Of a DNA stretch of 64,000 nucleotides, positions 43,361-48,321 are shown piece by piece. Below the pieces are notes generated by a model. That model saw only the letters and a program-made list of their open reading frames with translations. It had not been told where the DNA came from and searched no databases. The position numbers and the translations under genes were made by a program. Each line of letters begins with the position of its first letter. The first letter of the stretch is position 1. The stretch is from the NCBI RefSeq assembly GCF_900100875.1, contig NZ_FNKQ01000001.1, positions 124,001 to 188,000 of the forward strand. The letters are read 5' to 3'. Origin of the DNA: Halopelagius longus (GTDB lineage Archaea > Halobacteriota > Halobacteria > Halobacteriales > Haloferacaceae).

Positions 43361-44437
43361 TCAGTCGGCGGAACTGCGCGGCCCCGAACTGGGCCGTTTG
43401 TCGATGCCCGCGGCGTCGATGTCGTCGCCGCCGACCGACGAGCGGAGTTCGTCCATCCCGTCGTCGCGGTCGATGCCGAAGTTGTCCTCGTAGAGGTCGG
43501 CGACGCGAGTCATCTCCTCCTCGGAGAGTTTCGGCACCTCGGAGGCGGCGGCCCACTCGGTGATGTCCGCTCGGGTGTGGAACGTCGGCGTGACGCTGGC
43601 GACGGCGTCGTGGCTCAGGAGGTACGCGATGGCGGCCTGTCCCATCGTTCGCTCGCCGTCGCGTTCGAGGAAGCGGAGCGTCTCTATCTTCTCCCAGCCC
43701 GTCTCGTACCACGCGTCGGGGCGGAACCCGCGGTGGTCGTCCAAGTCGTGCCCCGTCTCGGGCGTCACCTGTTCGTTCAGGAGGCCCGAGGAGTGCGGCA
43801 CGCGCGGGATGAGACTCGTCGAGGAGCCCGTCTCCTCGATGGTGTCGAGGAAGTGGTTGCCCACCTCCTGCTCGAAGAGGTTCCAGACGAGTTGCACGGC
43901 GTCGAACTCCTCCGTGATGGCCATGTCGCCCTCGGCGAGCCAGCCGATGGAGGGCCCCAGCGCCCACCCGACGGCGTCCACGAGACCCTCCTCGCGGAGT
44001 TCGTCGAGGGTCTCAAGCACGTCCTCGTCCACCTCGTCGACGTTCGCGTTGTGGAGTTGGAGCAGTTCGACGTGGTCGGTGTCGAGGCGTTCGAGGCTCT
44101 TCTCGGTCGCCGAGCGAACCCACTCGCCGGTCATCTCCTTGGGGAGTTCGCCGTGACCCGCCTGCGGGTTGTTGTAGAAGTCGTAGCCCACCTTCGTCGC
44201 CAGCGTCACCTCGTCGCGGTACTCCGCGATGGCCTCGCCGACGACTTCTTCGCTTTTGCCGTGGCCGTACACGTCGCCGGTGTCGAAGTAGGTGATGCCC
44301 TGCTCTATGGCGTGGTGAAGCAGGTCGATGGACTCGTCCTTCGAGCGGTCGCCCCACCAGTCGGTGCCGACGACCCACGCGCCGAACCCGACTTCGCTGA
44401 CCTCCACGTCCGAATCGCCCAGCGTCCGGTAGTTCAT
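43361..44437 (-). CDS. Aldo/keto reductase
   Basis: A 358-aa TIM-barrel NADPH-dependent oxidoreductase. The AKR tetrad is visible as Asp (YFDTGDVYGHGKSE, also holding the Tyr), Lys (ATKVGYD) and His (LLQLHNAN). The barrel is of the YajO/Tas-like type with GDVYG and a C-terminal extension of ~40 residues, acidic, ending RPSSGPRSSAD. Substrate unknown. It may be the first gene of a small minus-strand operon (reductase, small membrane protein, perhaps pantoate kinase). Confidence 0.92.
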   Translation of the reverse strand: MNYRTLGDSDVEVSEVGFGAWVVGTDWWGDRSKDESIDLLHHAIEQGITYFDTGDVYGHGKSEEVVGEAIAEYRDEVTLATKVGYDFYNNPQAGHGELPKEMTGEWVRSATEKSLERLDTDHVELLQLHNANVDEVDEDVLETLDELREEGLVDAVGWALGPSIGWLAEGDMAITEEFDAVQLVWNLFEQEVGNHFLDTIEETGSSTSLIPRVPHSSGLLNEQVTPETGHDLDDHRGFRPDAWYETGWEKIETLRFLERDGERTMGQAAIAYLLSHDAVASVTPTFHTRADITEWAAASEVPKLSEEEMTRVADLYEDNFGIDRDDGMDELRSSVGGDDIDAAGIDKRPSSGPRSSAD

Positions 44438-44468
44438 ACCGCCTGCTTGGTATTCGGGTCACTTTAGC

Positions 44469-44812
44469 CCACCTTTTTTCTCGTCGGTTTCCTCGTTCAC
44501 TACGTTCGCTGCGGGAACCCTCCTCGAAAAAGCTGGACCAAAAAAATCCGACTCCGCCGTCTGCGACGGCTCCGTCGGTGAACCGCTCGCTTCGCTCGCG
44601 GACACCTGAGTGGTGTACCAAATACCTCGAGCGGAACGACACCGTTCCGAAAAAAGCGCTATCAACACTCTCCACTCGTTCTCCTACACCGCCCTCGATA
44701 ACGGCCAGTAACATGCACCGCGAGCGAGGGCGGAGCCCGAGTCTCGCGGCCTTTTTGGTCCAGATTTTTCGAGGAGCGGTGCGCTTCGCGCACCCGACGA
44801 AGAAAAAGGTGG
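44469..44812. repeat. Nested 344-bp inverted-repeat element
   Basis: Outer arms 44469-44487 and 44794-44812 are 19 nt each, inverted and nearly identical (CCACCTTTTTTCTCGTCGG-type). Inner arms 44520-44544 and 44752-44776 are 25 nt each with a single mismatch; their core reads GCTGGACCAAAAA or TCTGGACCAAAAA. A perfect hairpin CGGAACG-ACAC-CGTTCCG lies in the middle (44632-44649). No convincing gene is inside. This fills most of the 421-bp gap before the fructan genes. Confidence 0.8.
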
Positions 44813-44858
44813 TACTAAACCACGAGTTAATACTCCGCCCCCTCGAACGACAGCGACG

Positions 44859-47021
44859 ATGGACGAACTCCCCGTCCGCGTCGCGTTCCTGCGCGCGGAC
44901 GAACTCACGGACGAACAACGCGCCGCCCGCGAGTGGTGCGAACGGACGGTCGCAACCGTCGAGGACGTCGCACTCGCGGACCTCGCACCCGACGACGCGT
45001 CGCTCTCCCGGTTCGACGCCGCGTGGTGGCACCGAGGCGAACCGCTCGACCCGGTTCGGGAGGAGGCGGCCGACTGCGCCGACGCCGTCTCGGAGTTCCT
45101 CGCCGCCGGAAACGGTCTCCTTCTGACGCTCCGGGCCCTCTCCGCCGTCGAACCGTTCGGCGTCGACCCCGTCGCGCCGGACGCCGTCGGCGTCGAGACG
45201 CCGCCCGAACCGAGCGGACTCCTCAAGAAGCGCACGTTCGACGCCCACCCCCTGTTCGAGGGGTTCCCCCTCCGCGAACTCCACACCCAACCGGCGGAGG
45301 CGGCGCGGCCGTTCGCCCGGTACGAGGGGTCGCTCCCCGCCTCCGGCGACGTACTCGCCTCGACGATTCGCGGCGAGGCGTTCCACGTCGCGCAGAAGGC
45401 GGCGTTCGCGTGGCGCGTCGGCCAGGGAGACCTGTACGGCGTCGGATCGGAAGTCGCGTTCCTCCCCGGACGGGAGTTCGAGGCCGCGGAGGCGCAGCGA
45501 CGACTCCTCCGCAACGCCCTCGCCCTCCTCGGCGGCGACGCGCGCCGCCGCCCGCGATTCACCGACAGACCCGACGACGCGGCGGGGTTCGAGGCGGTCC
45601 GCGAGGAACTCGCCGACGACCACCGCCGACCGCGCTACCACCTCTCGGCCCCCGCGGGGTGGCTGAACGACCCGAACGGAATTCTCCAGTACGACGGCAC
45701 GTACCACGTCTTCTACCAGTACAACCCGGGCGGGCCGTTCCACGGCACCATCCACTGGGGACACGCGACGAGCGAGGATCTGGTCCATTGGGAGGACCGC
45801 CCCGTCGCCCTCTCGCCCGACCCGGACGGCCCGGACCGCGACGGCGTCTGGTCGGGGTGCGCCGTCGTGGGCGACGATGGGACGCCGACCCTCGTCTACA
45901 CGGGCGGGCGCGGGCGCGACCAACTCCCCTGTCTGGCGACGACGGACGACCCCACGTTGGAGACGTGGGAGAAACACGGCGAGAACCCCATCCTCTCGGC
46001 CCCCACCGAGGACATCGACCTGCTCGAAACCGACGACTGGCGCGCGGAGTTCCGCGACCACAACGTCTGGCGCGAGGGCGGGACGTGGTACCACCTCGTC
46101 GGCGCGGGCGTCGAGGAGACGGGCGGGGCGGCCCTCCTCTACAGGGGACCGAACCTCCGCGAGTGGGAGTACGTCGGCCCCCTGTTGGTCGGCGACTGGG
46201 AGGGCCACGGCGTCGTCTGGGAGTGCCCCGAACTGCTCGACTTCGGCGAGAAACAGGTGCTGCACGTCTCGAACTACAGCCACGTCGAGTACTTCCTCGG
46301 CACCGCGAACCTCGACGACCCCTCCTTCGAGATAGAGCACCGCGAACGACTCGACTACGGCGACTACTACGCGCCGCAGTCGACGCGGACGGACGACGGC
46401 CGCGTCCTCGCGTGGGGGTGGGCCCCCGAGGCCCGCGACGCGGAGGCGCAGTGGCACGCCGGGTGGTCGGGGCTGTTGACCGTCCCGCGGAAACTCTCCG
46501 TCGAGGGCGGCGAACTCCGCCAGCGACCCGCGCGAGAACTGGCCGAACTCCGTCGCCGCCGCGCCGCGGAGGGGGATATCTCCCTCGCCCCCGGCGACTC
46601 GCGCACGCTCGATCTGTCGGGTAACGCCTACGAACTCGCGTTCGACGCGCGGACGGAATCGGGGGCGACGCTCGAACTCGGCCTGTTCGAGTCGCCCGCG
46701 GGTAACGAGCGAACCGTCGTCCGCTACGACGGCGACGAACTCGTCGTGGACCGCTCCGAGAGCGCTCTCGACGGCGTGCCCGAGACGAGCGAGCAACGGA
46801 TGCCCGTCGAGGGCGACATCCTGTCGCTTCGGGCGTTCGTGGACGGCTCCGTCCTCGAACTGTTCGCGAACGAACGGCGGTGTCTCACCAGTCGCGTCTA
46901 CCCGACGCGGGCGGACGCCGAGGGCGCGTCGCTCTCCGCGCGCGGCGGGTCGGTCCGAATCGACGGACTCGAGGCGTGGGAACTCGGCGCGGCGTTCGAG
47001 GCGCGGGAGCGCGGCGAGTAG
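44859..47021 (+). CDS. GH32 fructosidase with N-terminal GATase-like domain
   Basis: A 720-aa protein. Residues 1-~230 look like a class-I glutamine-amidotransferase or ThuA-like alpha/beta domain ([22 protein letters not shown]) with no visible catalytic triad. The GH32 beta-propeller follows. The nucleophile is D271 in WLNDPNG and the acid/base E455 in WECPEL. The transition-state motif reads FRDHNVW with D400, where the family normally has RDP. A C-terminal beta-sandwich (~560-715) ends [17 protein letters not shown]. No signal peptide, so sucrose or fructan hydrolysis would be intracellular. Convergent with the GH68 gene, one base apart. Confidence 0.9.
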
Positions 47022-47022
47022 T

Positions 47023-48321
47023 TCAGTACTCCCCGCCGTCGCCGTCGTCGCCCTCGGCGCGCGTCCACCACGGTTCGGGCAGTCCCTCGCGGGGAAGCGG
47101 CAGGTGGCCGTGGTCGAGTGCGCCGCGGACGCGCGTCTCTGCCCCGTCGAGTTCGATTCTGACGGTGGGCGCGAGGGTGCCGCCGAAGCGCCGGCGCTGT
47201 TCGTCCTCCGGGAGGAGGGCCACGTCGTCCATCGTCGGCCGGTCGTACTCGTGGTAGTTGAAGAAGGAGGTGGCGAGGAGTTCGTCGCCGTGGTCGTACG
47301 CCAGCCACGAGTACGCTTGGAACGGCGCGCCCGCCGGGTTCGTGACGACCATCCCGTGGCCGTTCAGCGGTTCGTAGTCGCCGCGCAACTCGTCGGCGAC
47401 GAAGCCGTAGAGGGCGTCGTACCCCTCCAGTCCGGGCGCGAACGTGTGAACGTGACTGGAGACGAATAGGTAGTACCGCCCCCGACGGACGACGAGGTGC
47501 GGGCGTTCGAGTTCCTGATTCACGCAGACGGCGTCCAACAGGGGCGGCCGGAGTTCGAAGTCCGTCGGGTCGCCCGTCGGCGAGTGGGCGATTCCGACGC
47601 TCCCGTTGAACTCCTGTTGTGCGGGGTCGCCGCCGCAGGCGTCCGACCCTTCGGGGACGGGCGTGTTCGCCTCGAACAGCAGGTACGTCTCGCCGGAGGC
47701 GGGGTCCTCGAAGAACCACGGGTCGCGGAACGTGTACGTCATCCCGCGGTACTGCGCCTCCGTCTCGTACAACTCGCCGTCGGGTTCGAGGAGGATGGAG
47801 TGTTCCCACGGACCGTCGATGGACACTCCGTCGCCGACGGTCAACCGGCCGCCTTCCGCGAGAGCGATTCGCTGGGAGTACGAGAGTTCCTTCTCCCTCG
47901 CGCGCCCGGCGGCGGTGTAGTAGCAGTAGACGTCGCCGTCGTCGTAGAGCACCGACCCGGCCCACTGCCGAGAGCCGAACGCTTCGCCTTCGAACACCGG
48001 CCCGCCCGTCTCCCAGTTTTCCCCGTCCTCGGAGTAGAAGTAGCGGAGGGTGGCGACGTCGTGGCGTTTCCCGGGGAGCAGGTCCGAGGACGCCGTCAGC
48101 GCGACGATGACCCGGTAGCCGTCGATTTCGGCGATTTCCCCGCCGCGCTCTCGGAGGAACCACGTGTCCCAGATGTGGAGTTCGTCGTCGACCCGTTCGT
48201 CGGCCGGGTAGATGACCGGCGCGACGTTCGACTCGTCGCGTCGGAGTTCGGACGCGTGGTCGCGCGTCCACGCCGCCCGCGACGCGTCCGACGGACCGTC
48301 CGGTCCTCGATTGCCGTCCAT
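47023..48321 (-). CDS. GH68 levansucrase/inulosucrase
   Basis: A 432-aa five-bladed propeller fructosyltransferase that transfers fructose from sucrose to a growing fructan or to water. Catalytic residues are all visible: nucleophile D52 (IWDTW), stabiliser D200 (FRDPW) and acid/base E272 (ELERPH). RQWAGS is the conserved sucrose-box region. It lacks a signal peptide, as far as I recall for other haloarchaeal GH68 enzymes, so export is uncertain. The ATG at 48321 begins the conserved protein; the longer open frame to 48483 is non-conserved. It shares its downstream end with GH32. Confidence 0.92.
   Translation of the reverse strand: MDGNRGPDGPSDASRAAWTRDHASELRRDESNVAPVIYPADERVDDELHIWDTWFLRERGGEIAEIDGYRVIVALTASSDLLPGKRHDVATLRYFYSEDGENWETGGPVFEGEAFGSRQWAGSVLYDDGDVYCYYTAAGRAREKELSYSQRIALAEGGRLTVGDGVSIDGPWEHSILLEPDGELYETEAQYRGMTYTFRDPWFFEDPASGETYLLFEANTPVPEGSDACGGDPAQQEFNGSVGIAHSPTGDPTDFELRPPLLDAVCVNQELERPHLVVRRGRYYLFVSSHVHTFAPGLEGYDALYGFVADELRGDYEPLNGHGMVVTNPAGAPFQAYSWLAYDHGDELLATSFFNYHEYDRPTMDDVALLPEDEQRRRFGGTLAPTVRIELDGAETRVRGALDHGHLPLPREGLPEPWWTRAEGDDGDGGEY

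Follow-up and report, generated by a model that had tools for sequence, protein, structure and literature searches.

The REP/BIME elements of bacteria form a family that is linked to RAYT, and a REP/RAYT system combines short, intergenic, multicopy palindromes with a Y1-type transposase. PATEs, which carry IS605-like palindromes, are known in Haloquadratum (PMC3119063). In Haloferax volcanii, intergenic termination sites are marked by T stretches, a T5C insert caused 95% of transcripts to terminate in vivo, and 3' UTRs have a median length of 97 nt (PMC7237163). Template switching can yield paired arms without selection on RNA (PMC8794818). The site analysed here lies in a stretch of 64,000 nt from Halopelagius longus, called the window. 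The feature in the window consists of a pair of repeat copies in inverted order; the repeat is REP-like, palindromic, and dispersed in haloarchaea, and its family and spread are described below.

The window site

Between an aldo/keto reductase gene (minus strand, 43361-44437) and a GH32 gene (plus strand, 44859-47021), the arms of the feature take up the whole intergenic space, and one copy stands before each of these two divergent genes. The genes were called with a codon-usage caller and identified by a Pfam scan. The original prediction described two independent pairs of inverted arms nested around a central hairpin. Both pairs were recovered: the 25-nt arms (44520-44544 and 44752-44776) are 96% complementary, and the 19-nt arms (44469-44487 and 44794-44812) are 89% complementary. 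Their independence was not borne out; each copy of one repeat contributes half of both pairs. Since the window holds two repeat copies in inverted order, the two arm pairs are one fact, and the "nested hairpin" of 344 bp merely results from their presence together. The central perfect hairpin (CGGAACG-ACAC-CGTTCCG, 44632-44649) exists as described, and is an ordinary 7-bp stem. The lack of a credible ORF was also confirmed: the caller found none between the two genes, and the ORFs listed there overlap with real genes, in different frames. The suggestion of a small repeated palindromic element held as to repetition and palindromy. A single miniature inverted-repeat element of ~350 nt did not hold, and was replaced by two inverted copies with a core of 61-76 nt. 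The parts of the site are as follows (R1 is a covariance model of the repeat, described below).

44460..44467, minus strand: CACTTTAG block adjoining copy A on the aldo/keto reductase side; kept in relatives with or without copy A (five compared)
44469..44544, minus strand: copy A, repeat core; towards the aldo/keto reductase start it ends in GGTGG, read on the plus strand as CCACC from 44469; R1 match 44468-44544, minus strand, 47.1 bits, E 1e-9
44548..44578, minus strand: GC-rich hairpin of 31 nt adjoining copy A, seen in the sequence; other copies have hairpins at this place
44583..44601, minus strand: second GC-rich hairpin adjoining copy A, 19 nt, seen in the sequence
44718..44749, plus strand: GC-rich hairpin of 32 nt before copy B, followed by T5, seen in the sequence; other copies are arranged alike
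44752..44812, plus strand: copy B, repeat core, with its GGTGG end (44808-44812) towards the GH32 start; R1 match 44752-44813, plus strand, 72.4 bits, E 3.4e-16
44813..44836, plus strand: promoter-like sequence of the GH32 gene, with TTAATA at 44827-44832, which we take to be the TATA/BRE; kept in the relatives without copy B (G001, G086, G087, G088 and G089)

The RNA fold of copy B was computed at -22.6 kcal/mol (z -2.48); its z values on the two strands (-2.48 and -2.74) beat most shuffles. Those of copy A (-0.88 and -1.22) were no better than many shuffles. A GH68 (levansucrase-type) gene at 47023-48321 lies tail to tail with the GH32 gene, and the two form a fructan gene pair. The GH32 protein has ~260 residues ahead of its GH32 domain (window 44859-45640) that gave no Pfam match at E <= 1e-5.

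The same site was compared in relatives. There were 30 GH32 loci in all, and the upstream sequence was compared for nine (L216-L224); L220 was not syntenic at the GH32 site, and L223 and L224 showed no copy by eye. G025 was not syntenic at the window site. Copy B was missing from all five relatives with a syntenic site, and these retain the adjoining promoter-like sequence as close variants (AAACCACGAGTTAAT and similar). Copy A was present in G089 and, with an extra inner hairpin, in G086; G088 has part of it, G001 a decayed form, and G087 none. Among the six genomes, copy B occurs in that of H. longus only, and the same-genus genome has only a decayed copy A; the long-range pairing between the copies is therefore not conserved.

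The repeat family and its docking at gene boundaries

The repeat core (61 nt or more) can be written T5-GGTCCAGA-T5-[palindrome]-A5-GGTGG. The H. longus genome was searched with positions 44380-44900, which gave 20 matches at E <= 0.001; these comprise the whole region, the arms against each other, and partial half-matches elsewhere. The pattern TTTTGGTCCAGATTTTT with up to two mismatches was found at 15 places in this genome and at none for the reversed control; it is thus not a product of chance. When all are read in the same orientation, most of these places have a common build, in the order TTTTT, GGTCCAGA, TTTTT, GC-rich palindrome with a tandem G-A mismatch, AAAAA, GGTGG, often with a GC-rich hairpin ahead of the first T tract. 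The covariance model R1 was built from 11 copies of the H. longus genome (alignment A2). It gave 18 matches at E <= 0.001 in that genome, including one reverse-strand shadow and one partial match, which leaves 17 distinct places. R1 matched 45 of 60 haloarchaeal genomes (H. longus included) and 39 of 50 genera, with at most 44 matches per genome. These results bear out the impression, voiced with the original prediction, that GGTCCAGATTTTT-type hairpins recur in haloarchaeal genomes.

In a phylum sample of 148 genomes, 31 had an R1 match. Outside the order, 12 genomes of this sample had weak matches only (best 6.2e-6), a number that exceeds chance for E <= 0.001 provided that the rough E-values hold. 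Rfam gave no match at E <= 5 for positions 44300-45000. With positions 44700-44820 as query, a phage collection gave no match and a plasmid collection gave one partial match (Halorussus caseinilyticus); a plasmid or phage origin was dropped on these results. When a DP2 fragment was compared, the closest named relative was Halogeometricum limi (91%).

Some copies are more complex. L021 and L022 of the H. longus genome, and similarly L111 and L215, carry an extra hairpin pair (CCAGAACGC..GCGTTCTGG and CCAGAAATC..GATTTCTGG) just before the core. The pair lies within the repeat, between the first T tract and GGTCC, as though a second small repeat targets it. In G086, copy A carries another hairpin at roughly this point. 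At G010:C2:11074-11333, three R1 matches stand in tandem with a spacing of 103 nt.

The placement of the repeat was analysed for 115 copies from 30 genomes, mostly the best-scoring of 468 R1 matches (shadows included). The sample is uneven, with 18 copies from G040, 17 from H. longus, 11 from G010, and 10 from G039. Reverse-strand shadow matches and doubly fetched places were left out, together with L038 (partial), L014 (very long apex), and the second L069 copy (N). Genes were called with our codon-usage caller, trained on the window. The distance from the GGTGG end to an opposite-strand stop codon, or to a tRNA 3' end, is -3 to +5 nt in 76 of the 115 copies, which come from 20 genomes. If placement in these gaps were uniform, 6.0 would be expected, as computed on the 112 copies that have both neighbours. 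None of the 115 copies lies 6-58 nt from such a stop or tRNA end. A smaller class of 12 copies (7 genomes; 3.1 expected) has the GGTGG end 30-50 nt upstream of a start codon, and both window copies belong to this class, not to the stop-docked one. The other 27 copies are docked at neither stop nor promoter: nine follow shortly after a same-strand gene and fit no other class, and the remaining 18 fit no class at all.

A T tract of at least four begins 3-11 nt past the stop (median 7) in all 76 stop-docked copies, and the tract is followed by C in 37, by A in 26, and by G in 13. In 40 of them the far-side gene is oriented towards the element, which makes a convergent pair; in 36 it is oriented away. 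The neighbours in the H. longus genome are ordinary genes, such as those for DP2 (DNA polymerase II), a CDC48-type AAA protein, PhoU, PTA/malic enzyme, and PTH2. No transposase was found among the 18 neighbour proteins scanned in this genome, three of which are encoded by the window genes.

Orthologous gene ends were also compared. A stop-docked palindrome with a T tract was found at the end of the CDC48-type gene in five of six relatives, and at that of the PhoU gene in four of six, plus one variant; several of these palindromes are of another sequence type. A stop-docked palindrome was present at two of ten malic enzyme loci, paralogues included, and the end of the PIN-domain gene (L029) had the element in none of six relatives. 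Past the DP2 stop of 80 haloarchaeal and related loci, 17 loci with a palindrome of the repeat's architecture close to the stop were counted by eye, in either orientation and partly with another sequence, and a further three were doubtful. In these loci, 171 gene ends (those of DP2 among them) had 120 nt or more downstream. T5 stood within the first 20 nt of 16 of these ends, and A5 of two; a T4 tract followed by its complement occurred in ten, versus one for the control. Just past the DP2 stop of L186, L188, L195, L196, and L198 (mostly Natrinema), there are palindromes of like architecture and another sequence, the 5' arm holding T4 and the 3' arm A4, followed by ATCAAAAG or similar. These may perhaps be a sister family.

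MITEs carry the terminal inverted repeats of a known transposon and a short target duplication. Long direct repeats (score >= 20) were sought in the flanks here. Of the 115 copies, 15 (10 genomes) stand between direct repeats, whose length varies from 22 to 95 nt. The fifteen duplicated flanks scored 22-89, and a control of 115 mismatched flank pairs scored 15 at most. By eye, a protein gene's 3' end is involved in ten of them and a tRNA-gene neighbourhood in five. Duplications accompany 14 of the 39 copies that are not stop-docked, versus one of the 76 stop-docked ones (Fisher 4.9e-7). Similar flank duplications were seen at DP2 in Haloferax denitrificans and Halogranum rubrum. A tandem duplication, followed by loss of the last element, is our preferred reading and would account for these flanks. 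Casposon or integrase att sites were considered for these flanks and set aside, since the duplications come from many different genes and the short repeat beside them is always the same.

Paired arms and candidate functions

The compensatory changes expected from comparative folding were found in three data sets. In the 11 copies of the H. longus genome, seven of 22 pairs have changed on both sides, and none of 500 shuffles scored as high. Alignment A4 contains thirty loci, one per genome, as 30 distinct rows fitted to the model. In A4, 92.6% of cells are paired, and 12 of 21 pairs (67 cells) have changed on both sides; again none of 500 shuffles reached this, and slid structures scored far lower. 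The pair cells comprise 560 Watson-Crick pairs, 16 G-U pairs (11 in one column), six A-C pairs, and 40 others. The triplet outside the T/A stem is CCA/TGG, CGA/TCG, GCA/TGC, GGA/TCC, GAA/TTC, or GTA/TAC. Its combinations at the genome level are complementary in 38 of 43 cases (shuffle mean 12, maximum 23 of 5000; 110 of the 115 copies passed the length filter). In G040, copies L088-L092 have common outer parts and differing apical arms, and these are yet mostly complementary. At a CDC48-type gene end (L258, TGAAGC...GCTTCA), the stop codon lies inside the stem. The scarcity of wobble pairs and these apical arms suit upkeep by template switching at least as well as selection on RNA (PMC8794818). 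The retained G-A mismatch argues that something also selects on structure. A K-turn reading of the G-A loop was considered and dropped, as the loop resembles a symmetric tandem G-A pair.

The reading to which we give somewhat better than even chances is that this REP-like palindromic family acts as a compact two-way T-tract terminator or insulator at gene boundaries. The T tracts lie near the ends of the palindrome, so that there is one on each strand. A transcript leaving a stop-docked gene would meet a T tract 3-11 nt past its stop codon, and a transcript from the opposite side would meet the GC hairpin and two T tracts. Before promoters, the repeat may shield against incoming transcription. 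Given the termination at T5C and T stretches reported for H. volcanii, the repeat would set a credible stop on each strand at the gene edge. The pattern places, the spread, the docking, the T tracts on both strands, the covariation, and the persistence of palindromes at the CDC48-type and PhoU gene ends are observed and speak for this reading. Termination as the selected function is inferred, as is template switching in replication as the process that keeps the arms complementary and makes the local duplications. Against the terminator reading, docking would give 3' UTRs far below the H. volcanii median, and a C follows the T tract, as in the tested T5C, in just 37 of 76 copies. The hairpin is also unexplained by termination alone, because a stop at the first T tract would need no palindrome. 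Where an orthologous gene end lacks the element, it mostly has its own T tract, and the element is thus not required. The 27 copies docked at neither boundary and the unremarkable fold of copy A likewise count against this reading, as do the choice of best-scoring copies and the use of our own gene calls.

The terminator reading was weighed against three others. A non-autonomous mobile element of the IS200/IS605 kind, PATE- or REP/RAYT-like, is unlikely; a Y1 enzyme would bind the single-stranded hairpin, docking would be an insertion preference, and termination would be incidental. Multicopy palindromes, presence or absence at orthologous sites, tandem arrays (L069 and L075), and the conserved strand-specific G-A mismatch are consistent with such an element, as is the precedent of PATEs. 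However, the enzyme search, which covered Y1 and TnpB, matched neither in the H. longus genome (99.8% complete; 17 repeat places), so that resident IS200/IS605-type enzymes do not explain the repeat. G059 likewise has neither, with 21 repeat matches; G039 has 44 repeat matches, no Y1, and eight TnpB matches. Copies and Y1 are unrelated across the 60 genomes (26 with both, 19 with copies only, seven with Y1 only, and eight with neither; Fisher p 0.55; rho -0.05). A structured RNA, kept because the transcript folds and acting in 3' UTR stability, protein binding, or regulation, seems quite unlikely. The strong compensatory change and the retained G-A mismatch would fit it. The wobble intermediates are, however, rare and near-symmetric between strands save in one column, in all 76 stop-docked copies the host gene is antisense to the strand with the G-A pairs, and Rfam gave no match. 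Moreover, template switching can give paired arms without such selection (PMC8794818).

The original proposal, a single nested element or a regulatory hairpin spanning ~344 bp, is very improbable. The minimum-energy fold of 44431-44860 does pair copy A with copy B, but the halves occur singly elsewhere in the genome, and the relatives largely refute this reading, with copy B missing in all five syntenic ones and copy A decayed in one and absent in another.

A broader account is possible, if rather doubtful. The repeats would be uncatalogued, order-wide palindromes docking at gene ends, made and paired by template switching at stalled hairpins, which would also duplicate host 3' ends; no recognised transposase would be involved, the stop codon would sometimes lie in the stem, and the copies would be kept as two-way terminators. 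If this is true, terminators are made and homogenised by a mutational process, not by transposition. If the terminator reading is true, haloarchaea bear an unannotated family of dispersed palindromes that terminate transcription where housekeeping genes end (in H. longus DP2, CDC48-type AAA, PhoU, and others), which would provide testable two-way terminator parts. The repeats might further offer a natural case of hairpins that stay paired with hardly any G-U intermediates, and would caution against reading strong covariation as proof of RNA function.

Comparison with known systems

Neither the family nor its docking at gene ends was found in the full-text literature available, with closed-access papers and supplements outside the scope; work on REP, PATEs, and T-tract terminators was found. 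The text of the RepRanger paper (PMC12306157) contains no word starting with "halo". Template-switch-maintained hairpins share multi-base compensatory changes without G-U intermediates (PMC8794818). They are described there for RNA genes, whereas the present repeats are intergenic and retain an uncorrected G-A mismatch. Archaeal T-tract terminators of H. volcanii are similar in having a T stretch just 3' of genes (PMC7237163). All 76 stop-docked copies have a T tract shortly past the stop; neither window copy is of this class. Ordinary terminators of this kind are not known to be dispersed palindromes, and their median distance from the gene is 97 nt.

PATEs and other small mobile repeats of Haloquadratum are likewise haloarchaeal, transposase-free, and palindromic, with tens of copies or more (PMC3119063). 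PATEs are tied to IS605-type transposons, with which they share near-terminal palindromes, whereas the H. longus genome has neither Y1 nor TnpB. The REP/BIME elements are short intergenic palindromes with many copies, form hairpin mosaics, and lie near gene 3' ends, and the haloarchaeal repeat is also a short, palindromic, intergenic, multicopy repeat. It differs in that no Y1-type transposase was found in its own genome and none was associated with it over 60 genomes, in that its end lies within a few nt of the stop codon, and in that T tracts on both strands are fixed parts. We file this gene-end repeat as REP-like by its build and spread, outside the REP/RAYT system and, provisionally, outside the PATE system.
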